Positions 5,368 to 31,112 of a stretch of DNA of 56,118 nucleotides are shown in pieces (position 1 is the first letter of the stretch; the number at the start of each line of letters is the position of its first letter). The stretch is from Deltaproteobacteria bacterium. Its GTDB lineage: Bacteria > Myxococcota_A > UBA796 > UBA9615. The stretch is from the NCBI GenBank assembly GCA_023954745.1, contig JAGSHC010000009.1, forward strand, positions 1-56,118, in the 5' to 3' direction. Below the pieces are notes generated by a model that was not told where the DNA came from, did no database searches, and saw nothing but the letters and a program-made list of their open reading frames with translations. Both the position numbers and the translations under genes were made by a program.

Positions 5368-5534
5368 TCGCGTCGTTCTCCTGGGGTGGGGGCGGCAAGG
5401 GTAACGGACCGCCCCACCCTTGGAACCCTCAGCCCGCCATGGACTGGACGACCTCGGTGAGGGCGGCCTGGAGAGGGCTGATAGGCTCGGCTCCACATGG
5501 GGAGCTGCGCTCGCGCGCGCCCCTCGGAGACTCC

Positions 5535-8348
5535 ATGCACCGACTGCTCCGCGTGTCCCCTGGTCTCACGCCGCTCCTCCTCGCTGCGTGCTCGCTCCTC
5601 CTCACGGCCTGCACGCTGCCGTCCCAGGAGTGCCCCATCAACGCGACCTGGACCGACCAGACCTGCGCCTGCGACGCAGGCCTCTTCGGAGAGATCAGCT
5701 GGGACGCGGACGCGGAGATCTACACCGGCGAGTGCATCACGGCGGTGGAGATGGCGGTGCGCACGGGAGACGCCTCCTACGTCGACGCCGCGGGGCCCAT
5801 CCTCGACGAAGCGCGGCTCGCCCTCGACGACGCCGCGGGGACCTGGACCACCCTGCTGCGGTCCATCTACGACGACGGCCCCGTGGAGTACACCCCAGGC
5901 AACAGCAGCCAGTTCGTGCGCGCCAACTCGCTCGAGGACAACACGGCTCTGGTGCTCGGTTCCCTCGATGGGGAGCCCCTGGCCGCCATCGGCCAGTTGG
6001 ACGGCGCGCGCTACGCGGCGTTCGGGTTCGAGCTGCTTTCGTCGTTCGCGGATGGGGGCAACGCGGACTTCGAGCGCCCCTTCGAGCGCACCCTGGCCTG
6101 GATGTTGCGCGACGACGCCGGGGCCGGACTGCCCGTCGCCGCTGCCGTGGCCGTGGTGGGAATGGGCGGCGCCGAGGGCAACGCGGTGGCCTGGGCCGAG
6201 GGGCTCGGCTGGACCGCCGAGATCTGCTCCCCCGATTCCTACGATGACTGCTTCGCCGCGGCGGACCTGCTGGTGGTCGGCTCCGCCGGTGGAGACGCGG
6301 ACGTCGACGCCTTCCAGCGCGCCTACTTCGATGCGCTGGACGCCGGGGTGGAGGTGCTGTTCGTGCACACCGGCACCTGGGGGACGAGCAACTTCGGGGC
6401 GGCGGCCCTGTCGCCCCTCGACCTGTCCTTCGGGGGCTACGGCGGCAACTACTGGGCCAACGACTACGCCGACTGGTCGTCCATCTCCGACATGCTCGCG
6501 GGCGGCGGCTCCATCGCGGCCCTGCGCGCCCTCGTGGAGCACTTCGTCGCCGGGGACTACGACTTCGACTGGAGCCAGTGCACCGAGTTCGTGGGCCAGC
6601 GCAGCTGTGGGGACGTGCCGGGCTTCGCGGACCAGTTCCTCGATGGCGCCCGCGCGGTGAAGGACGCCCTGGCGGGGCTCGATGGGCAGGGCGTGGCCAT
6701 GTTCACCGAGGACGGCCGCCGGATCTGGAAGCTCATGACGTTGCTCGGCGACGTGTTCCGGCGCGACATCGCCTACCCCATGGACCGGCTCACCACCGAC
6801 ACCATGGAGTTCCTTGCGGCCTACTACGCAGACCACAGCGTGCACTACGGCCGAGCCATCCAGGCGCCGCAGGAGGACATGGGCAGCTTCTCCAGCGGAG
6901 AGGAGCGGGACGTGCAGCCGTCCCCGAGCGAAGAGCTCGCCGTCTCCGTCAGCCGGCGCGGCGGGTTCACCGCCGTCGGCGCCTACGTGTTGCCCGGCGA
7001 GGTGGTGACCATCGAGCGCACCGACGGCGAGGACGTTGCCGCCTGGGTGTCGATCAACACCCAGCGCACGGGCAGCACCCGCGAGTTCGACAACGACGGC
7101 TACACCCGCCCCAAGTACCTGCAGAGCCCGCGGGTCCCCGTGGTGGCCGGCGTGCCCGTGTCCTTCTCCTCACCCTACGGGGGCACCTTGCAGCTCCACG
7201 CCTCCGGCAGTGACCTGGACCGCGAGCTCTTCCTGCAGGTGGACGGCGCAGGGCGCCACGAGGTCTTCGAGCTCGGGGAGGACACCGCGGCCTACGCAGA
7301 CGCCCTGGCGAGCTCGCCCTATCCCTTCACGGAGATCCGAAACCCCTACGTCCAGATCCACTCGCTGCGCAGCCGCATGCTGGAGTCCATCGACAACTAC
7401 GGCGGCGACCTCGACCTCTTCACCGAGGAGCTCGAGCGCTACATGATTCAGGACACCTACAACCTCGCGGGCTTCGTGGGAGACGGCCTCGAGCAGAGCG
7501 CCACCGTGCTCGCCCACTGCGACACCCTCGGTTGGAGCTGCACCGACGCCGACGCGCACGCCAAGCCACCCATCCAGCACATCAACGTCGACCTCTACGC
7601 CCACTGCGGCGGAGGCTGCTCCGGCAACCCCTACGACCAGGCCTGGGCGCTGGGTCCTCTGGGGTGGGGCGAGACTCATGAGATCGGCCACAACCTGCAG
7701 CGTGGACGCATCAAGATCTACGGGGGGCGCAGCAACGAGGTGTCGAACCAGATCTTCCCGCTGCACAAGCACGTCACCTGGGCCGAGGACACTGGCGAGT
7801 CGCTGTCCGCGGACCGCTCCGACTACCGGTTCATCTTCGACCTCCTGCAGGAGGCCTCGGACGACGCCGACCCCACCGCCACCGTGTACGACGCCATCTG
7901 GGCCGCCGACGGCACCTACTCCAACAACGGCGACCGCATGAACTTCTACCTCCAGCTGGCGCACCGGAGCGACGACGTTGCCTGGCTCGACTCCGGGTGG
8001 GACGTCTACACGCTGATGTACTTGCAGGACCGGCTGGTGGCCGACGCCCTCGCGGACGAAGACACCTGGGATGCGCAGAAGGAGGCGTTGGGCTTCGGGA
8101 CCTACGCCGACCGGCCCGAGTTGGACGGCAACGACTTCATGCTGCTGTCCATGTCCTTCCTCACCGAGCGCGACCAGCGGCCGTTCTTTGCCATGTTCGG
8201 CGTCACCTGGTCCAGCAGCGCGGACCTGCAGATGGACGCCTACGGCTTCACCGAGGAGCCCCGCACCTTCTGGGCGAGCACCGACACCAACCAGGCGCCC
8301 CATCCCGAGCCCGTGCTCATCGATGGGACCAGCGCCTGGCCGCTCTGA
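5535..8348 (+). CDS. ImpA/M60-like secreted zinc metalloprotease lipoprotein
   Basis: A 937-residue protein with an N-terminal signal sequence ending in two possible lipoboxes (LLAAC Cys19, LLTAC Cys26). The catalytic site GWGETHEIGHNLQ has the gluzincin HExxH motif (His715, Glu716, His719), with NEVSNQIFPLH downstream as in M60/enhancin-like peptidases. The length and the N-terminal half (several Trp- and Gly-rich segments before the catalytic module) resemble Pseudomonas ImpA, a secreted peptidase that cuts glycoproteins next to O-glycans. YTLMYLQDRLV and the C-terminal beta-rich tail fit that family. Glycoprotein specificity is inferred from family only. The ATG at 5535 is chosen because the signal peptide begins there. 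It stands alone, divergent from the oxoamine synthase gene with a 167-bp gap. Confidence 0.88.
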   Translation: MHRLLRVSPGLTPLLLAACSLLLTACTLPSQECPINATWTDQTCACDAGLFGEISWDADAEIYTGECITAVEMAVRTGDASYVDAAGPILDEARLALDDAAGTWTTLLRSIYDDGPVEYTPGNSSQFVRANSLEDNTALVLGSLDGEPLAAIGQLDGARYAAFGFELLSSFADGGNADFERPFERTLAWMLRDDAGAGLPVAAAVAVVGMGGAEGNAVAWAEGLGWTAEICSPDSYDDCFAAADLLVVGSAGGDADVDAFQRAYFDALDAGVEVLFVHTGTWGTSNFGAAALSPLDLSFGGYGGNYWANDYADWSSISDMLAGGGSIAALRALVEHFVAGDYDFDWSQCTEFVGQRSCGDVPGFADQFLDGARAVKDALAGLDGQGVAMFTEDGRRIWKLMTLLGDVFRRDIAYPMDRLTTDTMEFLAAYYADHSVHYGRAIQAPQEDMGSFSSGEERDVQPSPSEELAVSVSRRGGFTAVGAYVLPGEVVTIERTDGEDVAAWVSINTQRTGSTREFDNDGYTRPKYLQSPRVPVVAGVPVSFSSPYGGTLQLHASGSDLDRELFLQVDGAGRHEVFELGEDTAAYADALASSPYPFTEIRNPYVQIHSLRSRMLESIDNYGGDLDLFTEELERYMIQDTYNLAGFVGDGLEQSATVLAHCDTLGWSCTDADAHAKPPIQHINVDLYAHCGGGCSGNPYDQAWALGPLGWGETHEIGHNLQRGRIKIYGGRSNEVSNQIFPLHKHVTWAEDTGESLSADRSDYRFIFDLLQEASDDADPTATVYDAIWAADGTYSNNGDRMNFYLQLAHRSDDVAWLDSGWDVYTLMYLQDRLVADALADEDTWDAQKEALGFGTYADRPELDGNDFMLLSMSFLTERDQRPFFAMFGVTWSSSADLQMDAYGFTEEPRTFWASTDTNQAPHPEPVLIDGTSAWPL

Positions 8349-9093: not shown

Positions 9094-10434
9094 GTGAACG
9101 TCCGCGCAACGAGCTCGCAGGCCGTCGCCTCCCGAGCGTCCACTCAGGCTGAGACCGTCGAGTTTCTCGTCGTCGGCGCGGGGGTGGCGGGCAGCTGCAT
9201 CGCCGACGGCCTGAGGCGACTGGGGCACGAGGTGGTGCTCGTCGACCGCGCCTCGGGCCGCCCCAATCGATTTCGGGGAGAGTATCTGCAGCCGTCCGCA
9301 GTCCAGCGCCTGGTGCGCATGGGCTTTGGTGAGGCGCTGCTCGATGCGTCCTTCCCCCTGCGTCGCCTGCACTTCCGGGATCTGCGGTCTCCCCGGCGTG
9401 GGGTCGGTGGCGAGACGTGGATTGAGTACCCCGACTCCACCGAGGCGCGCGCGATCCAGCACGTGGACTTGATCGAGGGGCTGCGCGCCATCGCCGAAGA
9501 CACCCTCGGCAGCGACATGATGATGGGGACGCGGGTCGAAGCGGCCTCCCAGGGCTTCGACCCCGATGTCCCCGAGGTCGTGCTCCGCTCCGCAGACGGC
9601 TCGACCCGCCGCCTACGTCCGCGCTGGATCCTGGGCTGTGATGGTCGAGGGTCCCTGGTGCGGCGCTGGATGGGGGGCGCAGAGTGTCCGCCCACCGGGC
9701 GGGTTGCCTGGCTCGGGAAGCGTGAGCTCCTCGCCGGAGCCCTCCTCGAGGGGGCGTCGGGCCTTCCCGAGCATGTCGAGGTGGTCCGAACCCGCCGGAA
9801 CGGCACTCTGTGGACCTTCCCGCTGGGATCGGGTCTGCAGCGGGTCTATTGGAACCTGCCCGCCGCGGGCGGACCCCGCCGTGCCGAGATCACGGCTGGG
9901 CTCCACGCGGTCCTGGACGAGGCCCGGCCCCATCTGGGCTGCGAGGGCGGACGGATGCGCGACGTGACCGCTGCTCCCTCCAACCCCGCGTGGCTGGGGC
10001 CCGCGGCCCGAGGGCGCCTGGTGCTTGCTGGCGACGCCCTCGCCGTCACCTCGCCCCTGGGCGGGCAAGGAATCAGCTGTGCCTCTGCCCATGTCGAGCG
10101 CTTGCTGCAGAGCGTCTCCGACCGGCGGGGCGCCCCGGAGCCCTTCGATACCCAGTCGCTGCGGGGCTACGAGGCCGAGGCCCGGGCGCGGTATCGCGAA
10201 GTCCGGACTCTCAACTTCCACATCTACCACCTGTTCTACTCCCGAGGGCCCGTCAAGGGGTTGACTCGGCTCGTCGTGGACTCCTGGCGCCGCAACCCGG
10301 AGCGCCTCGTGCGCCTCGGTGACCTCTTTGGGGGGACCCGCGCCCAGCCCCTCCGCCTGAGGGAGGTCCCCGCTCTGATGGGGCTCCCCACCCCGCACTC
10401 CCGACGCGCTCTGACGGAGAGACTGCAGGCTTGA
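9094..10434 (+). CDS. FAD-dependent monooxygenase, squalene-epoxidase/UbiH-like
   Basis: 446 residues. The N-terminal Rossmann motif VVGAGVAGSCIADGLRR (GxGxxG at 28-33) binds FAD. RFRGEYLQPSAVQRL (60-73) resembles the R-x-x-GE-x-LQPGG segment of squalene monooxygenases. GCDGRGSLVRR (181-191) is the DG motif. LAGDALAVTSPLGGQG (311-326) is the GD motif, with the P-L-GG-G form also seen in squalene epoxidases and UbiH-type hydroxylases. Expected chemistry is NAD(P)H/O2-dependent epoxidation or hydroxylation of a lipid or aromatic substrate. The GTG at 9094 is supported by AGGGGAGA. The SDR gene follows after 22 bp. Nearby membrane-cyclase-like and P450 genes favour an isoprenoid substrate; a quinone-ring hydroxylase or a prenyl reductase is the main alternative. 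Confidence 0.87.
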   Translation: MNVRATSSQAVASRASTQAETVEFLVVGAGVAGSCIADGLRRLGHEVVLVDRASGRPNRFRGEYLQPSAVQRLVRMGFGEALLDASFPLRRLHFRDLRSPRRGVGGETWIEYPDSTEARAIQHVDLIEGLRAIAEDTLGSDMMMGTRVEAASQGFDPDVPEVVLRSADGSTRRLRPRWILGCDGRGSLVRRWMGGAECPPTGRVAWLGKRELLAGALLEGASGLPEHVEVVRTRRNGTLWTFPLGSGLQRVYWNLPAAGGPRRAEITAGLHAVLDEARPHLGCEGGRMRDVTAAPSNPAWLGPAARGRLVLAGDALAVTSPLGGQGISCASAHVERLLQSVSDRRGAPEPFDTQSLRGYEAEARARYREVRTLNFHIYHLFYSRGPVKGLTRLVVDSWRRNPERLVRLGDLFGGTRAQPLRLREVPALMGLPTPHSRRALTERLQA

Positions 10435-10456
10435 GCCAACGCATCGCGGACGTGCC

Positions 10457-11401
10457 GTGAAGGTGCTCGTGACCGGCGCTGCCGGAAATGTGGGCGCTCA
10501 CACCTGCCGGGCTCTCCTGGACGCCGGTCACGAAGTGCGTGGGATGGACCTCCCCTCGCGGGCGGCGCGCCGGGTGGCCGCGCGGCTCGACGGCGCCGAG
10601 TTTGCGTGGGGGGACATCACGAACCCCGGCGCCATCGCCGAGGCGGTGAAGGGAGTGCAGGCCATCGTGCACCTCGCCGCGGTGCTGCCCCCGGCGAGCG
10701 AACAGCGGCCCGAGCTCGCGGAGGCGGTCATCCTCGACGGCACGCGGCTCTTGCTCGAGGCGTCGTCGGCAGGTCCCCGCCCGCCGCGGTTCGTGCTCGC
10801 GAGCTCCGTTGCTGTGTACGGGGCGCGCCCGATCACGAGCCCTCCTGTCGGCCCGGGGGACCCGTGTGATCCCGTGGACACCTACGGCCGCCTCAAGGTC
10901 CAGGCGGAAGCCCTGGTCCAGGCCCGCGCGGACAGCGCGGTCTTACGGTTGGGCGCGGTGCCACCGCTGTCGGCGAGTCAGGATCTGGACCCCTACTTCT
11001 TCACCATCCCCTTCGAGAACCCCATCCACGCCGTGCATCCCATGGACGCTGGGCGCGCCTTCGCGCGGGCGGTGGAGGCGGACCTGGGCGATCGCCCGCT
11101 CCTGGTGGCCGGGGGAGAGGGTTGGCGAATGACCTACGGCGCCCTCGTGGGCGCGCTGTTCGAGGCAGCCGGGGTCGGTGCGCTGCCAGCGGAGGCCTTC
11201 CGGCCGCTCAGCGAGGGCGGGCCCGCGCCCGTCGGTTGGATGGACACCACCGAGGCGCAGGAGCGCCTCGGCTTCCAGACCCGCTCGCTGGAGCGCTACC
11301 TGAGCGATCTCGCTCCGATCCTCGGGGTGCGCCGGACGGCTGCGCGCTGGCTGCGCCCCCTGGCGCGTCGCTTTGTGTTGAGGCTCTCGCCCTACCTGTG
11401 A
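10457..11401 (+). CDS. extended SDR, NAD-dependent epimerase/dehydratase family
   Basis: 314 residues from GTG at 10457. The N-terminal NAD(P)-binding motif is VTGAAGNVGAHT (TGxxGxxG at 6-13). A catalytic Ser region (VLASSVAVYGA) and the YxxxK pair in DTYGRLKVQAE complete the extended-SDR triad. The C-terminal lobe recognises substrate and is not diagnostic. Family members include nucleotide-sugar epimerases and 3-beta-hydroxysteroid dehydrogenase-like enzymes. Given the flavoprotein directly upstream (22-bp gap), oxidoreduction of an alcohol or ketone on the same small molecule is plausible. It ends 5 bp before the convergent UbiB-like gene, with no visible terminator between them. Confidence 0.88.
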   Translation: MKVLVTGAAGNVGAHTCRALLDAGHEVRGMDLPSRAARRVAARLDGAEFAWGDITNPGAIAEAVKGVQAIVHLAAVLPPASEQRPELAEAVILDGTRLLLEASSAGPRPPRFVLASSVAVYGARPITSPPVGPGDPCDPVDTYGRLKVQAEALVQARADSAVLRLGAVPPLSASQDLDPYFFTIPFENPIHAVHPMDAGRAFARAVEADLGDRPLLVAGGEGWRMTYGALVGALFEAAGVGALPAEAFRPLSEGGPAPVGWMDTTEAQERLGFQTRSLERYLSDLAPILGVRRTAARWLRPLARRFVLRLSPYL

Positions 11402-11406
11402 CGCGC

Positions 11407-13122
11407 TCAGGTCTTCACGTCCTTGAGTCGGGCGCGGATACGCAAGATGGCGAGCAGGCCGACGAGGAAGAGCACTCCCTGCAGGGGCTCGTTGCGCACG
11501 GTGTGCTTCAGGGCGCCACCAAAGCTGCCGTCGAGCTTCGCCCACATCACCAGGGTCACCACCGTCGTGATCATGAGGGCGGCAGCGACCGCGTCGATCA
11601 ACACCCGCCCCACATCGGACTGCTTGCCGGCCGACAACGCGAAGGTGTGCATGTCCGCGTTCATCTCCACGGCGCGGTCGAGGGCCTCGACCTTGGCGAG
11701 AGCCTGGTCGTTCTCGTTCTTGACCAGCTCGCGCTCGAGGCGCTTCATGGGGTTCCGGCGAGCCTCCTTGCTCCACCGCCGCACCCGGCGGGAGTGCACG
11801 TCGCGGAGATACCGCTTGTAGACCTGGCTCGGGTCGAGGTCGGGGTCGAGCCGAAAGGCCACGGTGTCGTAGACGAAGGTCGCCCGGAACATGCGCAGGG
11901 TGTCGAGGTTGGCGGGGATGTCCCACTTGCGGGCCAACGCCGCGAACTTCAGCCAGGTGAACCCCGAGGCCTTCTCCCACCAGGCTGCGTGCTTGCTCCG
12001 TAGGGCATAGACGTAGTCCCAGAAGATCTGCTCCAGCTCCTTGGAGAACGAGGCCACGTCGATGGGCGGCAGCGGCTCCATCATCGCCACGGTGCTCCGC
12101 ACGAGCGAAGAGACATCGTTGGCGAGCAGCGCCTCTTGGGTGTGGCGCATCAGGCGTCGCGTCTTCTCCGTGATGCGGCCGCACGAACCAAAGTCGACGA
12201 AGACCAGGCGCCCCCCAGGCTCCACGAAGACGTTGGCTGGGTGGGGGTCGGCGTGGAACACCAGGCCTTCGAGGGACTCGAAGTACCAGGCTCGCAGCAT
12301 GCGTTGCGCCGCCTTCTTGGGCTTGATGCCGAGGAGACGGAGCCGGCTGAGCGCGATGTCGTCCTGGGTGTCGACGGCCCTCAGGATCTCGGTCATGGGC
12401 ACCGCCTCGACGAACCGCGTGACGAGGACCTCGTCGGTCGACAGGTCGTAGTGCACCTTCGGGGCGGTGACGTAGTGCTGGCGTCCCTTCCGCATGTCGC
12501 GCCGGAAGACCTCGATGAAGCGGGCTTCGCGCCGGAAGTCGAGCTCCTCGAGCAACATGGACCGCAGCTCGACGCGCAGGTGCTGCGTCCCCCGAGGGCG
12601 GGTGAACCCGAGGAGCTCCGCCACGGTGAGGAACCAGCCCAGGATGCGCAGGTCCGCGACCATCGCCGGCCCGATGCCGGGGCGGCGCACCTTGACCGCC
12701 ACCTTCTCGCCCGTGTGCAGCACTGCGGGGTAGACGCATGCGAGAGACGCGGACCCCACGGGCTCCTGGTCGATGAGGGCGAAGGTGTCGTCGAGGGGGG
12801 CGCCGGTGGCGCGCTCGATGGCTGCGGACGCGTCCTCCCAGGCCATCGGCGGTGACCGGTCGAGGAGCGCAGCGAGCTCCTCGCAGGTCTCGTAGGAGAG
12901 CAGGTCCGCCCGGACGGACATCTGCTGGCCGACCTTGCGGAAGGTCGGTCCGAGGGTCTCGAAGGTGAGTCGCAGCCGGCGACCCCGTTGCCGCGCCGTC
13001 AGGCGGCCCCGCAGGCGGTCCCCCAGCAGGCCGGCAGCGAAGAGGACTGCAGCCCAGCCCCACACGAACAGCCGGCCCACCGCCCGCAGGAACCCTCCTT
13101 TGAAGTGGAGGGTCTCGGCCAT
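11407..13122 (-). CDS. UbiB/ADCK (ABC1) family atypical kinase
   Basis: 571 residues. UbiB-family hallmarks are present: a KxGQ motif (RKVGQQMSVRADLL), an Ala-rich loop in place of the glycine-rich loop (PVGSASLACVYPA), the VAIK-like VAVKVRRPG lysine, a catalytic loop FHADPHPANVFV and the metal motif VFVDFGSCG. There is one hydrophobic segment near the N-terminus, and the C-terminus ends in two more, typical of membrane-anchored UbiB proteins. Known members support coenzyme Q and other isoprenoid-lipid biosynthesis or transport through ATPase activity. The gene is divergent from the first membrane-cyclase-like gene (176-bp gap) and sits inside a cluster of isoprenoid-like enzymes, which makes a polyprenyl-lipid role attractive but unproven. 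No strong ribosome binding site precedes the ATG at 13122. Confidence 0.92.
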   Translation of the reverse strand: MAETLHFKGGFLRAVGRLFVWGWAAVLFAAGLLGDRLRGRLTARQRGRRLRLTFETLGPTFRKVGQQMSVRADLLSYETCEELAALLDRSPPMAWEDASAAIERATGAPLDDTFALIDQEPVGSASLACVYPAVLHTGEKVAVKVRRPGIGPAMVADLRILGWFLTVAELLGFTRPRGTQHLRVELRSMLLEELDFRREARFIEVFRRDMRKGRQHYVTAPKVHYDLSTDEVLVTRFVEAVPMTEILRAVDTQDDIALSRLRLLGIKPKKAAQRMLRAWYFESLEGLVFHADPHPANVFVEPGGRLVFVDFGSCGRITEKTRRLMRHTQEALLANDVSSLVRSTVAMMEPLPPIDVASFSKELEQIFWDYVYALRSKHAAWWEKASGFTWLKFAALARKWDIPANLDTLRMFRATFVYDTVAFRLDPDLDPSQVYKRYLRDVHSRRVRRWSKEARRNPMKRLERELVKNENDQALAKVEALDRAVEMNADMHTFALSAGKQSDVGRVLIDAVAAALMITTVVTLVMWAKLDGSFGGALKHTVRNEPLQGVLFLVGLLAILRIRARLKDVKT

Positions 13123-13298
13123 GGAGGGGGTGGAGGCTCCGCCGGTCCCACCGCCATCGATGTGGAGGTGGGCGGGAACCGTCGCGCTCGCTGGTGGGTT
13201 GATTCTGTCCTCCGATGAGCTGCCCGTGGCCGCTCACAGGGCCCGAAAATGGACCCACGGGACTCTACCAGGGGGACTGTCTGTGCTTTCATCCCGGC

Positions 13299-13973
13299 AT
13301 GGTGGACGACATCCAGCCCCTCCTCATCGGGTCGGCGACCCTGGGCTGTGTCTTGTGGGTGATCACCTACCTGCTGGTGTTTCGGCGGGCGCGCCAGGAC
13401 GGCCGGCACGGATTCCCGGCGCTGGCCCTGGGGCTGAATCTGTCCTGGGAGATCACCTGGACGTTGGTGGTCGTGCCGGTGGGGCCTCTGGTGGACGACT
13501 ACGTCTGGCTCTTGAAGCTGCTCGGCTGGGCGTGGTTGGTCCCCAACTGCGCGCTCGCCTGGCAGTGGTTCAGTCTCGGCGGCCGGGAGCGGGCCGCAGA
13601 CGGTCAGCAGGCCTTCGTCCTCCGGTCGCTGGTGCTCTTCTCCATGCTGTTTGCCGCGCAGTACGGCTTCGCCGCCATCACCGCGGACCGCTCGGGCCAG
13701 CTCACCGCGTTCGTCGTGAACCTCGTGAACAGCGCCGCGTTCCTCGTGCTCCTGGGGAGCCGCCCCGACGGAGCGGGCCTGTCCTACGGGGCAGCTTGGA
13801 CCCGCATGCTGGGGACGGTGCTCGTGGCGCTGCCCTTCGTCAGCCTCTACCCAATCATCGACCCCGGCCGCGGCTCCTACATGCACATGCACGCCCTCTA
13901 CCTGTCCATCTTCTCGCTGGACCTCGTCTATGTGCTGTGGCTGGGCCGAGCCCGGCGCCGGATGGCGGCATGA
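13299..13973 (+). CDS. Pyr4/PaxB-like membrane terpene cyclase homologue 1
   Basis: 224 residues with about seven hydrophobic helices, the size and topology of fungal membrane-bound terpene cyclases (Pyr4, PaxB, AndB) and their few known bacterial relatives. LGLNLSWEITWTLVVVP places Glu51 in the second helix, matching the N-x-x-W-E signature that carries the catalytic Glu in Pyr4. FSLDLVYVLW puts Asp208 in the last helix, where Pyr4 has its second essential Asp. In fungi these enzymes protonate a terminal epoxide of a prenyl chain and cyclise it. The start ATG at 13299 gives the first helix directly. The stop overlaps the P450 ATG (ATGA). A paralogue lies at 19471-20223. The assignment is from motif and topology memory; a generic small membrane protein is the alternative. 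Confidence 0.72.
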   Translation: MVDDIQPLLIGSATLGCVLWVITYLLVFRRARQDGRHGFPALALGLNLSWEITWTLVVVPVGPLVDDYVWLLKLLGWAWLVPNCALAWQWFSLGGRERAADGQQAFVLRSLVLFSMLFAAQYGFAAITADRSGQLTAFVVNLVNSAAFLVLLGSRPDGAGLSYGAAWTRMLGTVLVALPFVSLYPIIDPGRGSYMHMHALYLSIFSLDLVYVLWLGRARRRMAA

Positions 13974-15319
13974 CGTCCGCGCTGGCTCGTACCCCGCCGG
14001 CGACGCCCGGGTTGCCGTTCATCGGCAGCCTCTACCGGATGATGTTCGACCCGCTGCACTACCTGCAGGAGGTGCCGCCGACCCATGGGGGGCTCGTGAA
14101 GCTGGGACGGGCAGCGGGCAGGGCGGTCTACCTGGTCACCGACGCGGAGATGCTCAAGGAGGTCCTCACCCAGCCGGACCGGTTCCTCAGCGGTCCCGTG
14201 AAGGCGTTCTTCAAGCCGCTGTTTCGCGATGGCCTCGTCACCAGCGACGGGGCGGCCTGGCGCCAGCAGCGCAAGCTCATCCAACCGAGCTTTCACCCTC
14301 GTCGGCTGGCGGCTGCGCAGCCACGGATGGCCCGCACCATCGCTGCGGGGATGGAGTCCTGGTCCTCGGACATCGACGCTGGCTCGGTGGTCGACATGTA
14401 CGAGCTGCTCAACCAGATCAGCATGCGCGTCGTCCTCGACGCCATCTTCGACCTGCCCGGCGCGCCGCCAGAGGCCTTGGAGCTCGGCACATCGGTCGGC
14501 TCGGCGATGGACTATCTCTACGACGCATTCTGGCGCCCCTACCTCCCACCCCGGTGGGTGCCCACCCCGAGGAACCGTCGCTTTGCCCGCAACCTGGCGG
14601 CCATCGACGCCTGCGTCGGCGCCCTCATCGAGCAGCGCAGCGGGGACTCCAGCGGCGACGACCTGCTCTCCATCCTGTGCCGGGCCCTGGGCTCCGCGGA
14701 CGGCCTGCCCCGCGAGGAGGTCGTGGGCCATCTCGTCTCCATCATCATCGGAGGGTTCGAGACCACCGCCCTCGTGATGACGTACGCGCTGCACCTGGTG
14801 CACGCCCACCCCGACGTGAAGGCCCAGCTCGTGTCCGAGGTGGACCGGGTCCTCGGCGGCGACCTGCCCACCGTGGAGCACATCGAGCAGCTGGTCTACA
14901 CACGCCAGGTGCTGGACGAGTCCATGCGGATCTACCCGCCGGCGTGGCTGTTCGGTCGCACCCCCGCGAAGGACGAGGCCCTCGGCGGATTCGCGGTCCC
15001 CGCCGACGCAAACCTGCTGATCAGTCCCTGGGCCGTGCACCATCGCCCCGACTATTGGCCCGATCCCGAGCGCTTCGACCCGTCGCGCTTCGCCGCGGAC
15101 AGCGGCGTCGACCGGCATCCCTTCTCCTACATCCCGTTCGGGGGAGGCCCTCGCTTCTGTGTGGGGCGCAACCTCGCGCTGATGGAGGGGGTCCTGCTCC
15201 TGGCGATGTTCATCCAGCGTTTCGAGTACCGCACGGTCCGACCCGAGCGCTTCTCGCTGGTTCCTGGGGTGACCCTGAGGCCTGCGGAGGGGCTCCCTAT
15301 GGTTCTGACCCGCCGTTGA
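13970..15319 (+). CDS. cytochrome P450
   Basis: 449 residues, full length. The proline-rich N-terminus PPATPGLPFIGS leads directly into the fold with no membrane anchor. Landmarks: WRQQRKLIQPSFHP (helix C W/R), I-helix GGFETT (261-266; the usual acidic-Thr pair is E264-T265), K-helix ExxR (Glu317-Arg320), the PDPERFDPSRF meander, and heme loop FGGGPRFCVG with ligand Cys397. Overall it looks like CYP4/CYP102-type class E enzymes that hydroxylate hydrophobic substrates. The ATG overlaps the stop of the membrane-cyclase-like gene, implying translational coupling, so oxidation of the cyclase product is a fair inference. No ferredoxin or reductase is next to it. Its last 23 bp overlap the end of the convergent regulator gene. 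Confidence 0.96.
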   Translation: MTSALARTPPATPGLPFIGSLYRMMFDPLHYLQEVPPTHGGLVKLGRAAGRAVYLVTDAEMLKEVLTQPDRFLSGPVKAFFKPLFRDGLVTSDGAAWRQQRKLIQPSFHPRRLAAAQPRMARTIAAGMESWSSDIDAGSVVDMYELLNQISMRVVLDAIFDLPGAPPEALELGTSVGSAMDYLYDAFWRPYLPPRWVPTPRNRRFARNLAAIDACVGALIEQRSGDSSGDDLLSILCRALGSADGLPREEVVGHLVSIIIGGFETTALVMTYALHLVHAHPDVKAQLVSEVDRVLGGDLPTVEHIEQLVYTRQVLDESMRIYPPAWLFGRTPAKDEALGGFAVPADANLLISPWAVHHRPDYWPDPERFDPSRFAADSGVDRHPFSYIPFGGGPRFCVGRNLALMEGVLLLAMFIQRFEYRTVRPERFSLVPGVTLRPAEGLPMVLTRR

Positions 15320-18300: not shown

Positions 18301-19460
18301 AGACGCGCTGCCAGGTTCACCACCGCACCGATCATCGTGTACTCGCGGCGCCGCCTGCTCCCGATCAGTCCCGCAAAGACCCGCCCCGTGGCGATGCCGA
18401 TGCTGCTGCGCAGGCCGAGGGTCTCGAGGTCCTGTTCGATGGCGCTGGCCGCGTGGCACGCATCGGCGGGGCGCACGCCGGCCGCGGCGGGAGGGAGCCC
18501 CAGGGCGGCGACGACGGTGGTGCCCTTGTCGTCGACGGAGACCTTGTCGAGGGCGCCCCCGGCCCGCTCGAGCCGCTTCTGCACGCTCACGAGGGCCTGG
18601 TGGAGGAGGTCGCGTCCGGCCGGAGTACCGTCGTCGGCCCCGGAGATGTTGATGAACAGCACCGTGAGTCGGCGGTACTCGGCGAGGTAGCCCCCGAGCC
18701 CCTCGCGCACGTGGGCGTGGACCGCAGTGGGCACGTAGGACCACAGGCTGTCGTCGAGCTGCGGGTCCGGCTCCCCTGGGTCGATTGCCGCTGCTGCCGT
18801 GCGTCGTGGAATCGACCGGAGGACGCTCCCGCCCGAGGGAAGTGGCCGGGTCTCGAGCCCGGCGCCGGCGACCTCGCGGGCGAAGGGGGTGAGGGCGACC
18901 ATGCCGCGATGGGTCTCCGTCAGCACCTGCCCGATGTTGCGCAGCGGGCGCCCCACCACCACCAACTCCCACCGATCCTGGTGACCACCGATGCGTCCCG
19001 AGGACACCTTCCCGGCACCCACGACCACACGTTGGGAGAGCTGGTGTGCGCGGTCCCCCTCGGTCCGACTCACCGCCAATGCACAGCGGCCGGCCGCAAG
19101 AACCGCGTCGCGAAGTGCGCCGGGAGAGTCGTCCTGGACCGGCCAGATGGCGACGATGGCGTCGCCGGCAAACTTGACGACCTCCCCCGCGTGCTCCGCG
19201 ACCAGATCGATCCATCGTCCGAACTGGGCGTTGAGGATGGAGACGAGCCGGTCGGAGGCGTGGTCGCCGTAGGTCTCAGCCAAGGACTCCGCGAGCAGCG
19301 AGAAGCCGCTGATGTCCGCGAACATCAACGCCGCCTTCTGCTCGACGAACGTCGCGCCCCCGTCGTCGGCGGAGAGGGCAAGCCGTTCGGCGAGGCGGAT
19401 TGGCAGGAAGCTCGCGACCTCGGAGCGCTCTGCCCCCTGTTGGCCCGACGTGTCGGTCAT
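15297..19460 (-). CDS. sAC-like dual-cyclase/ATPase/TPR regulatory protein
   Basis: 1387 residues with the architecture of mammalian soluble adenylyl cyclase (ADCY10). Cyclase domain 1 (about 40-215) has FADISGF with metal Asp49, and KFAGDAIVAIW with Lys96 and Asp100. Cyclase domain 2 (about 265-440) has VLFINISG, where the first metal Asp is replaced, then DKGTTVVAALGLP and EYTMIGAVVNLAARL. That asymmetry is the same as in sAC, where C1 carries the metals. A STAND-type NTPase follows with Walker A GPTGIGKT and Walker B VLLLDDIHYFD, then about 700 residues of helical TPR-like repeats. It could make cAMP or act as a nucleotide-gated scaffold. It begins 10 bp after the stop of the second membrane-cyclase-like gene, with GAGAGGTGA overlapping that stop, so the two form an operon. 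Confidence 0.9.
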   Translation of the reverse strand: MTDTSGQQGAERSEVASFLPIRLAERLALSADDGGATFVEQKAALMFADISGFSLLAESLAETYGDHASDRLVSILNAQFGRWIDLVAEHAGEVVKFAGDAIVAIWPVQDDSPGALRDAVLAAGRCALAVSRTEGDRAHQLSQRVVVGAGKVSSGRIGGHQDRWELVVVGRPLRNIGQVLTETHRGMVALTPFAREVAGAGLETRPLPSGGSVLRSIPRRTAAAAIDPGEPDPQLDDSLWSYVPTAVHAHVREGLGGYLAEYRRLTVLFINISGADDGTPAGRDLLHQALVSVQKRLERAGGALDKVSVDDKGTTVVAALGLPPAAAGVRPADACHAASAIEQDLETLGLRSSIGIATGRVFAGLIGSRRRREYTMIGAVVNLAARLMSSTHEGIVCDAATAEAGGDGVVFAPLGEIGVKGLEGGVPVFRPLIEIREPGLTTDSYRTLPLVGRDKERALLGAHLDTALSGTTVAVALRGPTGIGKTRLMLHVHEMASERGARVLLTSGSKAAQETPYEPWRDVVRRILDLDAEERPETSRQRVEEALSGDPSLQRRMPLLESVLHLGFPDNEFTATLKGELRAEMTDELLVQVLSLGRGDEAAQVLLLDDIHYFDSASIGALRLALTRLERTLVLATAPSLFAQESETPNGEADLDLATVELEGLDADDLRRLAAESLGAADTADAVRDWLFQHTSGNPLYCLELVRELAERQDLGLDPASQQLQFGAEVDVPGIRVPDSLEAAVRSRMDVLSPMEQLVLKTAAIIGMSFDPLQLLDALPVERDQATVLETVAALRRSGLIERSASGTVRFRHGVVQDVAYHSVTGRNRSAIHEAVAQWYESHRGERLSAFYPVLARHWSEAGDVPKALHYLEAAGQQALDLGNTREAVDFYGRAFEWCEREPERSLALAPPLRRARWHRNLGMAEDTRCRYQAAETSFRRAADELGLWIPRSAAGWTFLLLRESARRVWHNLFKGRYRALPEPEDSQGPANSSVSVPAERAALTHSMYETYYWTGDFELSMPAIALWAVNLAEVARLPAFSLAYLGFTLGVMRLSGPADRAFLRARQTAEYAHDVRIFCDICISEGSYLSLFGRWERGDAMFDLALERATEVGHLRLIQYAKGARTFWRLYQGQGTPHIPAILEEIQTNRTRTPGSGELAFNVSYAYGKLAAAQLDSDQAGEVPGTLDRMERALGDHDLPVQRVFHQSVRAIVAMRAGDMQATRAAALAGLALLEGKAKTEPTAFLPYAFLAEALLFLLESGETGSEVEAGLSRSLDLLGGLARAFPVCGPRHLVLTGRREAWRGSTKAAVRTWERASALAKSLEMTLDAGLVDLLMASLPGHAPAESEARLRAAHAVFASLESPWYLAKAEAALRSLDVNGGSEP

Positions 19461-19470
19461 CGCAGCTGAG

Positions 19471-20223
19471 TCACCTCTCCGGGGGGCCCTTGATCATCCT
19501 CGCCCGGCGGTGCCTTACAAGGGCGATGAGGAAGAGGAAGTTGAACACCGTGATGATGGCCGACATCGTCATCGAGAAGCTGTTGAACGAGGTCTTTGGG
19601 CCCCACTGCCAGTCCGCGACGACCGGGATCGCGATGAAGCCCACCACGTCGGTGCAGACCCGGACGATGCCGGCGAGGTAGTTGATTCCTCCGAGGCGGG
19701 GGCGCTCCAGGATTAGGAAGAAGAAGAGGATCGCCATCCCCATGTCGTAGGCGATGCCGATCATGCTGCCCTGGTTGCCCTTTTGAAAGGGATAGACGTC
19801 CGTGAACGTCCAGACGAACGCATAGGCCATCACCAACGACATCGCGATCAGGGGGACCCAGATCTTCTTGATCACGAGGTTGGGTTGCCAGCGGGCCCCC
19901 CACCGGAACAGCTGGTACACGATGACGACGTCGATGATCGCCCAGATCCGGCAGCCCCAAACGATCAGGTTGCTCCCTTCGGGGAACCCGGGTGGGGCCT
20001 GATAGAACCAGCCGAAGTAGACCTCGTAGGTGAAGTTGAGGCAGATGGCGAGGGCGGGGATGCCGTACGACTTGTCCTTGAAGCCCTGATAGATGGTGAG
20101 CCCATAGACGATGAGCCAGCCAATCATGATCAGGCAGGTCAGGACGGTACCGAACGTCCCTCCGCCAAACAGCCCGTTGCCTCCCCCGAACTGGGTACTG
20201 AAGAGATGAATCAAGTGGTGCAC
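19471..20223 (-). CDS. Pyr4/PaxB-like membrane protein, homologue 2
   Basis: 250 residues from GTG at 20223. An in-frame GTG at 20238 would add five residues, but AGGAGG sits six bases before 20223, so I prefer the shorter form. It has about seven hydrophobic segments. IPALAICLNFTYEVYFGW matches FPALALGLNLSWEITWT of the protein at 13299, keeping the second-helix Glu (Glu67 in this numbering), and an R-x-x-x-x-x-V helix aligns later. The last helix (MTMSAIITVFNFLFL) lacks the Asp that homologue 1 and Pyr4 have, so catalysis may be altered or lost. It is the first gene of an operon with the sAC-like regulator. It could be a second cyclase, a partner subunit or a membrane sensor. Confidence 0.72.
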   Translation of the reverse strand: MHHLIHLFSTQFGGGNGLFGGGTFGTVLTCLIMIGWLIVYGLTIYQGFKDKSYGIPALAICLNFTYEVYFGWFYQAPPGFPEGSNLIVWGCRIWAIIDVVIVYQLFRWGARWQPNLVIKKIWVPLIAMSLVMAYAFVWTFTDVYPFQKGNQGSMIGIAYDMGMAILFFFLILERPRLGGINYLAGIVRVCTDVVGFIAIPVVADWQWGPKTSFNSFSMTMSAIITVFNFLFLIALVRHRRARMIKGPPER

Positions 20224-27742: not shown

Positions 27743-30544
27743 CTACCCCGTGTTGCGCATCCCGGCAGCGACCCCGTTGATGCTGCGCAGGATGGCGTCG
27801 AGCACCGCGTCGTCGTCCGTCGCCTCCCCCGCGCGGCGACGGCGGAGCAGCTCCACCTGAAGGAACGAGAGCGCGTCGACGTAGGGGTTGCGCAGGTCGA
27901 TGGAGCGACGCAGGACGGGCAGTCGCTCCAGGAGGCGACCGAAGCCGAGGATCTGGCGAAGGGCGGTCACCGTGCGCTCGAACTCTGCGAGCAGGGCGGC
28001 GCGAATCCGCTCGATCTCCGCGCCGCTCCCCAGGGTTTGCACGTAGTGGGTGGCGATGTCGAGGTCCGCCTTGGCGCAGACCATCTCCACGTTCTCCAGG
28101 AGCGTGACGAAGAAGGGCCAGCGGGAGGCCATGTCCTGCAGGGTGGCGAGGCCCTCGTCGCCGTGGGTGTCGATGTAGGTCGCCAGGGCGCTGCCGACGC
28201 CGAGCCAGCCCGTCAGGGCGTGGCGAGACTGGGTCCAGCCGAAGACCCAAGGGATGGCGCGCAGAGAGCCGATGCCTTTTGCCGAACCGGCGCGGTACGC
28301 GGGGCGGGAGCCGATGGGGAGCTCCGCCAGCTCTTCCAGCGGGGACACTGCCGAGAAGTAGCTGAACAGATGCTCGTCCTCGTAGACCGTCGCTCGGAAG
28401 GTGCGCCAGGCGGTGTGACCGAGTTCGTCCATCACGGCGGCGAAGCGGGTCTGGTCCTCGTCCGAGACGTCGTCCCGCCAGTCGGCGAAGTCGTGGCTGA
28501 GCACCGCCGAGACGCCGAGCTCGAGGGACCGCCGGGCGATGTCCGGGAAGCCGTACTTGAACTGGATGATCTCACCCTGCTCGGTGATCTTGATCCGCCC
28601 GTCGACGCTGCCGGGGGGCTGCGCGAGGATGGCCCGGTGCGAGGGCCCGCCGCCTCGACTGAGCGTGCCGCCCCGCCCGTGGAAGAGCATCAGGCGCACA
28701 CCGGCCGCCTTCGCGGCGGCGGTGAGGTCCTCCTGGGCGCTGTAGAGGCGCCAGCTCGCGGTGAGCAAGCCCGCGTCCTTCGCGGAGTCCGAGTAGCCGA
28801 TCATCACCTCCTGGCGGCCGCCTTGGGCGTCGACCTGCCGTCGATAGCGGGGGTCTCCCCACAGGCCCGTCATGACCGCGGGGGCGGCGAGGAGGTCGTC
28901 ACGGGTCTCGAACAGTGGGGAGACGTCGAGGTCACTGCGCCAGCCGTCCCCGCGGAAGCCGAGCAAGCCGGCCTCCCGCGCGAGCACCATCACGGTGAGC
29001 AGGTCGGCGGCGCAGGTCGTCATGGAGATCACGCAGGTGCGAACGGCCTCGCGCCCGCACTCGCGGTGGATCTGGGCGATCACGTCGAACAACTCCACGA
29101 CCTGGGCTGCGTCGGAGCTGAGCTGCACGTCCCGGGGGAGCAGAGGGCGCCGGGAGTCCAGCTCCGTCAGCAACAGCTCCTCGCGGGCGGCGGGGTCGAG
29201 AGTGTCCCAGGAGCCTTCACCCTCGGCGGGGAGCACCCCTCCCGCGGCGAGCAGCTCGCCCATGATGCGGGCGTGCCGTCGCGCGTCCTCGCGGACATCG
29301 AGGGTGGCCAGGTGAAAGCCGAAGACCCGGATGCGGTCGACGAGGGGCTGCACCACGGCGTCGGCCGTGGAGTGGGCACCGTGACTGCGCAGGGACGCCC
29401 CCAGCAGCTGCACGTCAGCCAGGAACTCGTTCGCGGAGAGGTAGGGCACATCCGCTTCGACGTTCCGGCCCCGCGTCGCATCCAGCGTCGCCCGCAGGCG
29501 CGCCTCCATGAAGCTGAGCTTGAGGCGGTAGGGCTCGAAGCGATTGCGGACCGCGTTGCGCTCCCGGACCCGCGGGACCCGTCGTCCGTCCTTCTCGATG
29601 GAGTCGAGCAGGCGCTCCATCACCGGCGCTCGATTCGTGCTGTGGCTCAGCCACTTCTTCATGGGCTTGATCTGATCGAGGTAGCGCTCCAGCACCCGCT
29701 CCTTCATGAGGCGCGCGGTCTGGAGCGTGACCTGGGGGGTGACGAAGGGGTTCCCGTCCCGGTCGCCGCCCATCCAGGAGCCCAGCCGGAGGGGCACCGC
29801 GCCTCGCACGAGTTGGGCGTTGCCCGGTAGCTCGCCCAACACCCGCCGCGCTTCGCTCATCAGCTCGGGGATGGCGTTCCAGAACACCCGGTCGAAGACG
29901 TCGAGCAGCTCCTTCACCTCCTCGATGACCGTCGGGCGGCGATGGCGCAGCTCGTCGCTCTGCCACAGCGCCTCGATGTGCATGCGCGCTTCGGCATCCA
30001 GAGCCTGACGCTGGGAGGCGGTGTCGGCGTCGTCTCGCTCCAGGAGGAGCTCGTGCAGCCGGGCGAGCTTGTCCTTGGTGGTGCGGCGCTGGCTCTCGGT
30101 GGGGTGCGCCGTGAACGTGGGGCGCAGCTCGAGATCGGAGAGGGCCGCGGCGAGGCGACCCGAGTCGATGCCGCTGGCTTCGAGTCCGGTGAGCGTCGCT
30201 TCCAGGGACCCCAGCTGGGCGGCGGCGCCCTGGCGCTGGTAGTGGCGACGGCGCCGGACCCGGTGGGTCTGCTCGGCCATGTTCACGAGCCGAAAGTAGA
30301 GCGAGAAAGCCCGCACGACCGCCTCGGCCCGGGGCAGCTCCCAGGAGCGGATCAGGGCAACGACGGGCTCCGTGTCGCCCTCCTCTCGACGGCGCGTCTG
30401 GCACAGGCGTCGTAGACGCTCCACATCCTCGAACACGTCGGTCCCGGCCAGGGTGTCGATGGCCGTCCCCAGGGCGGCGCCGAGGCGGCGGACGTCGTCC
30501 TGAAGGGGCTTGTCTTGCGGGCGAACGGGAGGGAGTGCGGGCAT
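27743..30544 (-). CDS. ppc: phosphoenolpyruvate carboxylase
   Basis: 933 residues, normal for bacterial PEPC. It fixes bicarbonate on PEP to give oxaloacetate and phosphate, an anaplerotic reaction in the cytosol. Conserved pieces seen: TFTAHPTESQRRT with the catalytic His, GSWMGGDRDGNPFVT, GYSDSAKDAGLL, LMLFHGRGGTLSRGGGPSH with the catalytic glycine/arginine loop, and the C-terminal ending MRNTG. I use the ATG at 30544 (MPALPPVRPQDKPL). The reading frame runs on upstream to 30655, but that part is not PEPC-like and enters the divergent mscL gene. Divergent from mscL with about 100 bp between starts. Confidence 0.97.
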   Translation of the reverse strand: MPALPPVRPQDKPLQDDVRRLGAALGTAIDTLAGTDVFEDVERLRRLCQTRRREEGDTEPVVALIRSWELPRAEAVVRAFSLYFRLVNMAEQTHRVRRRRHYQRQGAAAQLGSLEATLTGLEASGIDSGRLAAALSDLELRPTFTAHPTESQRRTTKDKLARLHELLLERDDADTASQRQALDAEARMHIEALWQSDELRHRRPTVIEEVKELLDVFDRVFWNAIPELMSEARRVLGELPGNAQLVRGAVPLRLGSWMGGDRDGNPFVTPQVTLQTARLMKERVLERYLDQIKPMKKWLSHSTNRAPVMERLLDSIEKDGRRVPRVRERNAVRNRFEPYRLKLSFMEARLRATLDATRGRNVEADVPYLSANEFLADVQLLGASLRSHGAHSTADAVVQPLVDRIRVFGFHLATLDVREDARRHARIMGELLAAGGVLPAEGEGSWDTLDPAAREELLLTELDSRRPLLPRDVQLSSDAAQVVELFDVIAQIHRECGREAVRTCVISMTTCAADLLTVMVLAREAGLLGFRGDGWRSDLDVSPLFETRDDLLAAPAVMTGLWGDPRYRRQVDAQGGRQEVMIGYSDSAKDAGLLTASWRLYSAQEDLTAAAKAAGVRLMLFHGRGGTLSRGGGPSHRAILAQPPGSVDGRIKITEQGEIIQFKYGFPDIARRSLELGVSAVLSHDFADWRDDVSDEDQTRFAAVMDELGHTAWRTFRATVYEDEHLFSYFSAVSPLEELAELPIGSRPAYRAGSAKGIGSLRAIPWVFGWTQSRHALTGWLGVGSALATYIDTHGDEGLATLQDMASRWPFFVTLLENVEMVCAKADLDIATHYVQTLGSGAEIERIRAALLAEFERTVTALRQILGFGRLLERLPVLRRSIDLRNPYVDALSFLQVELLRRRRAGEATDDDAVLDAILRSINGVAAGMRNTG

Positions 30545-30647
30545 GGCGCGGAGGGTACCGCCGCGTTCCGGCTCCTGACCTGCGCGGGCGGGCTGACGCC
30601 GTTTACCCTGCGAACTCCGCGCCACGAGGGGTCGAGGAGGAGACGCG

Positions 30648-31112
30648 ATGAGCAAGCTGTGGAATGAGTTTCAGGCCTTTGCGGTCAAGGGAAACATGAT
30701 CGACATGGCTGTGGGGATCATGATCGGGGCTGCCTTCGGCACCGTGGTGAAGTCCATCGTCGATGACGTCGTCATGCCACCGCTGGGCATCCTCACCGGG
30801 GGGCTGGACCTGTCCGACCGGTTCATCGTTCTCAAGGACGGGGACCCCACCGCGCCGTACGAGACCCTCGTCGCTGCCACGGAGGCTGGAGCCGTGCTCC
30901 TGCGCTATGGCTCCTTCCTGAACGCGGTGATCAGCTTCTTCCTCATCGCGGTGGTCCTCTTCGTCCTGGTGCGTTGGACCAACAAGCTCCGCGACCCCGA
31001 CACGCCCCCGGCCCCGGAGAGTCGGGCGTGCTCTTACTGCATGAGCGTCGTGCACAAGAACGCCACCAGTTGCCCCCACTGCACCTCGGAGCTTGTCCTC
31101 GAGGCGGCGTGA
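30648..31112 (+). CDS. mscL: large-conductance mechanosensitive channel with zinc ribbon
   Basis: 154 residues. The N-terminal helix and first transmembrane segment (FQAFAVKGNMIDMAVGIMIGAAFGTVV) are classic MscL, as are SIVDDVVMPPLG and the second helix (FLNAVISFFLIAVVLFVLV). MscL opens under membrane tension and releases solutes during hypo-osmotic shock. The usual C-terminal cytoplasmic helix bundle is replaced or extended by a CxxC...CxxC module (Cys128, Cys131, Cys142, Cys145), a small zinc ribbon. ATG at 30648 after GGAGGAG. Monocistronic; a stretch with GTTGCG repeats and a sigma-54-like element follows before the SulP gene. Confidence 0.95.
   Translation: MSKLWNEFQAFAVKGNMIDMAVGIMIGAAFGTVVKSIVDDVVMPPLGILTGGLDLSDRFIVLKDGDPTAPYETLVAATEAGAVLLRYGSFLNAVISFFLIAVVLFVLVRWTNKLRDPDTPPAPESRACSYCMSVVHKNATSCPHCTSELVLEAA

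Follow-up and report, generated by a model that had tools for sequence, protein, structure and literature searches.

Why should a member of a terpene cyclase family be encoded directly in front of an adenylyl cyclase gene? The question is raised by P0001, a gene in a 56,118-nucleotide stretch of DNA from a Deltaproteobacteria bacterium (hereafter the window), where it is followed by P0002, a gene for an sAC-like adenylyl cyclase (Table 1).

A Pyr4-like protein and its partner gene

A profile search placed P0001 among the Pyr4 transmembrane terpene cyclases (family PF25129, Pyr4-TMTC; E 9.5e-15, 55.3 bits, above the curated cut-off of 27). Its AlphaFold2 model has seven long helices (pLDDT 85, pTM 0.83), and, like Pyr4, DmtA1, XiaE/XiaH and ZigF of the same family, it is a seven-TM protein of about 250 amino acids with an NxxxE motif and a catalytic Glu. 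The motif reads PALAICLNFTYE, keeping the PALAxxLNxxYE form, and the last predicted helix (217-249) is free of Asp, with Asn233 in its stead. Both features had been pointed out in a sequence-only reading of this DNA, which also took P0001 for the second Pyr4-like paralogue; it is a paralogue, but the genome has three Pyr4-like genes, not two, the third being on contig C351. GTG 20223 is the best start of P0001, given the GGAGGAGG just upstream of it. Residue numbers in this work are counted from the longer ORF start, GTG 20238, and are to be lowered by 5 for the GTG 20223 start.

Between the P0001 stop (TGA, 19471-19473) and the P0002 ATG (19458-19460) there are exactly 10 nt, and the Shine-Dalgarno-like sequence in front of P0002, at a rather long spacing of 13 nt, is part of the 3' end of P0001 and abuts its TGA. 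The two genes are therefore placed as the sequence-only reading had described them, with a 10-bp gap and a ribosome binding site of the partner overlapping P0001, and would be cotranscribed; Pyr4-type cyclases are cotranscribed with a prenyltransferase instead. The partner is also sAC-like, as claimed: its best PDB match is human ADCY10 (4oya, E 9.7e-32), over both catalytic domains, and it has profile matches to Guanylate_cyc, AAA_16 and, more weakly, TPR.

Table 1. Position of the features discussed in the window.
Feature	Position	Strand	Remarks
IMPa-like M60 family metalloprotease	5439-8348		
FAD monooxygenase, SDR-type (epimerase/3beta-HSD-like), ABC1/UbiB-like, P0003 and P450 genes	9094-15319		
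P0003, other Pyr4-like paralogue of the window	13215-13973	+	keeps Glu and last-helix Asp; Asn for D103
Cytochrome P450	13970-15319	+	overlaps P0003 stop by 4 bases
P0002, sAC-like adenylyl cyclase, 1387 aa	15297-19460	-	C1 and C2 cyclase domains, AAA_16, TPR-like C-terminal part
Shine-Dalgarno-like GGAGAGG before P0002	19474-19480	-	
P0001, divergent Pyr4-like 7-TM protein, 250 aa	19471-20223	-	profile match, alignment, AlphaFold2 model
Shine-Dalgarno-like GGAGGAGG before P0001	20228-20235	-	
Bestrophin (Bestrophin_2), divergent from P0001	20286-21281	+	ORF limits given; actual start probably ATG 20373 or 20376
PEP carboxylase	27743-30655		

The residues of class IIIb sAC-type cyclases were all found in P0002: two metal Asp (Asp49 and Asp100), substrate-site Lys96 and Thr375, and transition-state Asn382 and Arg386. 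These are the roles of the corresponding residues in sAC, and bicarbonate is a known activator of class IIIb cyclases; Lys96 is the bicarbonate-site Lys and Thr375 the class IIIb Thr. With this residue set, P0002 is expected to be an active class IIIb adenylyl cyclase. The C1-C2 heterodimeric catalytic unit is common to P0002, ADCY10 and bacterial class IIIb cyclases, and ADCY10 has a large NTPase-type C-terminal region as well. P0002 differs from them in that its C-terminal part is AAA_16-TPR and in that its pair mate is a seven-TM protein. Its cyclase-AAA-TPR part also matches the TOMM system kinase/cyclase fusion proteins (TIGR03903, E 2.5e-44); however, at 151.5 bits against an equivalog cut-off of 705.75 it is not a member of that family. 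Both are signalling proteins tied to a biosynthetic gene, but P0002 has no kinase domain and its context is of the isoprenoid type, not TOMM.

Recurrence of the pair and adjacency to AAA_16 regulators

Genomes with a PF25129 protein numbered 5 of the 71 in the class, 20 of the 379 sampled from the phylum and 23 of the 318 in a second class. The surroundings of 44 Pyr4-like loci were scanned for domains like those of P0002, for kinases, and for related AAA and cyclase domains. P0001 forms a clade of three with L018 (JACRCU010000571.1) and L047 (JAJDAI010000447.1), and both relatives adjoin an sAC-type regulator. In L018, from the same family as the genome of the window, the sAC gene is divergent and immediately adjacent; in L047, from another class, a gene on the same strand, 28 bp upstream, encodes an sAC-type AAA-TPR protein whose cyclase part lies beyond the end of the contig. 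The search for the pair in other genomes that the sequence-only reading had proposed thus gave a positive result, and the link between the Pyr4-like protein and sAC has persisted through three gene orders in three genomes.

In the Pyr4 tree the clade has a support of 97/93 (100/97 for L018 with L047), which falls to 89/87 without long rows. The partners of P0001 and L018 group on the cyclase part, and those of all three on the AAA-TPR part; both groupings also include one unpaired sequence, L069. This sequence was considered as a membrane-domain fusion to sAC and rejected, as it is no more than a long ORF in which hydrophobic stretches are scattered. Scans of the GTDB contigs found no relatives of the clade beyond L018 and L047 with a narrow alignment, and no relatives with P0001 alone. 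A Pyr4-like neighbour is absent from most sAC homologues of the class, and also from a second sAC-type gene of the same genome (contig C353; L076, L122), so sAC in general needs no membrane protein.

The pair belongs to a wider pattern, found in a phylum of bacteria whose relatives are on record as Deltaproteobacteria. An AAA_16 regulator, kinase and/or cyclase, touches the Pyr4-like gene in 10 of the 44 loci: it is of the sAC type in the window, L018 and L047, a cyclase-AAA protein in L051, a kinase-AAA-GAF-cyclase with a TPR-like stretch in L046, and a kinase-AAA protein in L039, L041, L042, L043 and L115. Elsewhere in 654 kb of flanks there was one more AAA regulator, 1.5 kb off (L117). At a generous chance of 2.5% per locus the binomial p is about 1e-7, and a Fisher test, with the number of other gene slots estimated at 500, gave about 3e-8, both for loci that are not independent of one another. 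Regulator adjacency requires 8 changes on the Pyr4 tree and hence is more than one inherited event.

These observations bear on the explanation that P0001 and P0002 share an operon and nothing else. AAA_16 proteins are common, with 47-149 matches per genome, and most sAC genes are unpaired, as this explanation would have it; yet the same pair in three genomes and three gene orders, together with the enrichment of AAA_16 adjacency, makes it very improbable. A functional link between the Pyr4-like membrane protein and the signalling protein is likely from the sequences compared, and it could run either way, with the membrane protein as sensor or as regulated enzyme.

Several other loci deserve mention. 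N-terminal fusions of Pyr4-like domains in L017, L038 and L050 were rejected, since none of them has a further Pfam domain; they can probably be put down to read-through ORFs. A very distant Pyr4-like membrane protein (L150 7961-8677, G249:C237), missed by the PF25129 search of the phylum, lacks a Glu in the usual NxxWE setting and has neither a regulator nor an MPAB neighbour.

Active-site residues and fold of P0001

DmtA1 is a characterised bacterial cyclase in which loss of E60 abolished function (PMC6173783). Its E60A/Q mutants do not complement and D94A fails; W29A and W59A give no product, Y33A/F are inactive, N56A and Y217A are poor, and Y217F is reduced (PMC6173783). Mutant D214A has very low activity, but D214N is clearly better and partially active (PMC6173783). 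DmtA1 itself being outside our alignment, its residues were mapped onto P0001 by motif and position: E60 to E72, D94 to D103, W29 to W41, Y33 to Y45, N56 to N68, W59 to Y71, Y217 to F236, and D214, the equivalent of the last-helix Asp218 of Pyr4, to N233. Five of them are kept in P0001 (E72, D103, W41, Y45 and N68) and three are changed (Tyr71 for the motif Trp, Asn233 for the last-helix Asp, Phe236 for Tyr). The catalytic Glu72 is invariant in 43 of 43 aligned proteins, and Asp103, as the second acid, and the Trp41/Tyr45 pair are likewise those of Pyr4-type cyclases. In contrast, position 233 is Asp in 40 of 40 other homologues compared, and the conserved Thr of helix 6 is replaced by Asp in P0001.

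Loss of the last-helix Asp had been read as a sign of a dead cyclase fold put to new use. This was not established: L018 keeps the Asp, Glu72 is retained in P0001, and the partial activity of DmtA1 D214N means that Asn233 does not expel P0001 from PF25129. The argument from the Asp is thus a weak one. In the terms set by the sequence-only reading, where an unconserved pair, or Asp-bearing close homologues acting as cyclases, were to count against it, the pair recurs, but L018 retains the Asp. Its broader idea of a membrane sensor or regulatory partner is partly supported, by the recurrent pair and the AAA_16 enrichment more than by the absence of the Asp.

The changes shared by the clade make a stronger argument. 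P0001, L018 and L047 are altered at the family-conserved W71, D151, N165, S169, T197 and Y236; T197D is common to all three, and neither D151 nor N165 of the consensus is retained in any of them. L018 has N68M, W71F and Y236T, and L047 is more altered, with N68M, W71Y, D233N and Y236S. The shared changes at Trp71, Asp151, Asn165, Thr197 and Tyr236 suggest an altered site, and this coherent alteration of the cavity would fit a pseudoenzyme and an enzyme of changed specificity alike. Since Glu72, Asp103, Trp41, Tyr45 and Asn68 are retained and an Asp-to-Asn change is tolerated in DmtA1, P0001 may still be enzymatically active.

The P0001 model was compared with known structures by Foldseek. Its seven-TM arrangement is like that of cystinosin, SWEET and the KDEL receptor, the nearest matches, with a best E of 4.9e-3 at a probability of 1.00, a weak match. 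TM-scores against PQ-loop-type folds were 0.45-0.68 depending on normalisation (best match 0.54 by query length, maximum 0.68 by target length), no sequence relation to PQ-loop proteins was detected, and no Foldseek E-value was below 1e-3. The model of P0003 matched the same families. The PQ-loop likeness is thus weak and family-wide; receptor or transporter behaviour is plausible on the model, which favours P0001 over no other Pyr4-like protein. A literature search found no report of this resemblance, which might hint at the fold from which transmembrane terpene cyclases evolved.

With such a fold, P0001 could be a PQ-loop-like transporter or anchor that brings the soluble cyclase to the membrane, or that moves a small molecule sensed by the cyclase, for instance together with bestrophin and bicarbonate. 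The divergent bestrophin gene and the class IIIb Thr375 and bicarbonate-site Lys96 of P0002 agree with this proposal. Nevertheless, the fold matches (best E 5e-3) extend to P0003, and a bestrophin gene, sought in the scanned flanks of L018, L047 and other sAC loci, was found in none, so that we consider it improbable. The window also encodes a PEP carboxylase, and this enzyme and the bestrophin anion channel might conceivably connect bicarbonate with a class IIIb cyclase.

Isoprenoid context and the possible role of P0001

In 13 loci, from two lineages (L039, L041, L042, L043, L104, L108, L110 and L115; also L020, L040, L048, L050 and L051), the Pyr4-like gene has an MPAB/Lcp-type oxygenase gene (PF09995; isoprenoid-chain) in its vicinity, in most of them as a direct neighbour, pointing to isoprenoid chemistry at these loci; PF09995 was confirmed by Pfam in six and assigned by phmmer similarity in the others. 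The module is often overlapped or touched by a kinase-AAA-TPR regulator, whose place is taken in L110 by a hybrid histidine kinase. In the window, genes for an FAD monooxygenase, an SDR-type and an ABC1/UbiB-type protein precede P0003, and the P450 gene that follows it is convergent with P0002, their stops overlapping by 23 bases. It is plausible that these genes form a small terpenoid/isoprenoid-modifying cluster, the product of which would then be a candidate ligand of P0001. P0003 is the sole case among 43 with Asn at the D103 position, the reverse of P0001, which is without the last-helix Asp.

This context favours the main rival to a regulatory role: P0001 would be a functional enzyme of unusual specificity, either a terpene cyclase or an isoprenoid-modifying one, and the sAC-like protein would be a regulator of the isoprenoid pathway that accompanies it in the way AAA-TPR kinases accompany intact Pyr4-like genes. 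Most regulator-linked Pyr4-like proteins retain the full residue set, and the oxygenase modules, the genes around P0003, the retained E72 and the partly active D214N of DmtA1 (PMC6173783) all fit an enzyme. However, no MPAB or UbiA gene adjoins the Pyr4-like gene among the scanned neighbours of the three-member clade, and P0001 differs from other family members at many conserved positions, among them W71, the equivalent of which is essential in DmtA1 (W59A inactive; PMC6173783). We regard this reading as a serious possibility, although doubtful.

We tentatively prefer, at close to an even chance, that P0001 and P0002 form a membrane-protein/adenylyl-cyclase module in which P0001, a diverged Pyr4 fold, serves as membrane partner or lipid sensor. 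Co-expressed with the catalytically complete class IIIb cyclase and its regulatory AAA_16-TPR part, P0001 would have kept the lipid-binding cavity of the fold with a partly rebuilt set of catalytic residues. It may bind an isoprenoid-type lipid, perhaps one made by the neighbouring FAD-monooxygenase, Pyr4-like and P450 genes, and its occupancy would be relayed, possibly by physical contact, to P0002 at the AAA-TPR part and so change the cAMP output; terpene cyclase activity would presumably have been lost. This module is suggested by the 10-nt spacing, the sAC neighbours of L018 and L047, the clade support, the AAA_16 enrichment, the shared site changes and the fold similar to KDEL receptor, SWEET and cystinosin. 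Against it stand the retained residues, the Asp of L018, the mere three members of the clade, the many unpaired sACs and the fact that the highest identity of P0001 (29-30%) is to L039, which has an intact residue set and an oxygenase module. A more specific version, in which the Pyr4 fold has become a lipid receptor of the membrane with direct control over an sAC-type cyclase, as the end point of the wider association of Pyr4-like genes with AAA-TPR kinases and cyclases, seems to us rather unlikely. If true, it would be an example of an enzyme turned into a component of signalling, with the fold of a terpene cyclase now serving as a receptor.

Literature searches for a link between Pyr4 and adenylate cyclase returned nothing on point; the parts are known; neither their pairing nor the broader association with regulators appeared in the literature searched, and the latter is apparently undescribed. 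A 2026 survey of bacterial Pyr4-like cyclases reports 1107 candidates, with work confined to the 264 that have terpenoid neighbours (PMC13307353). For part of the remaining candidates of that survey the recurrent link to kinase- or cyclase-AAA proteins would offer a concrete function, and the Pyr4-like association offers a route to what multidomain AAA regulators sense. The third paralogue of the genome (L016 4158-4874, G000:C351), next to which a UbiA prenyltransferase gene is found in divergent orientation, has the appearance of an ordinary biosynthetic enzyme.
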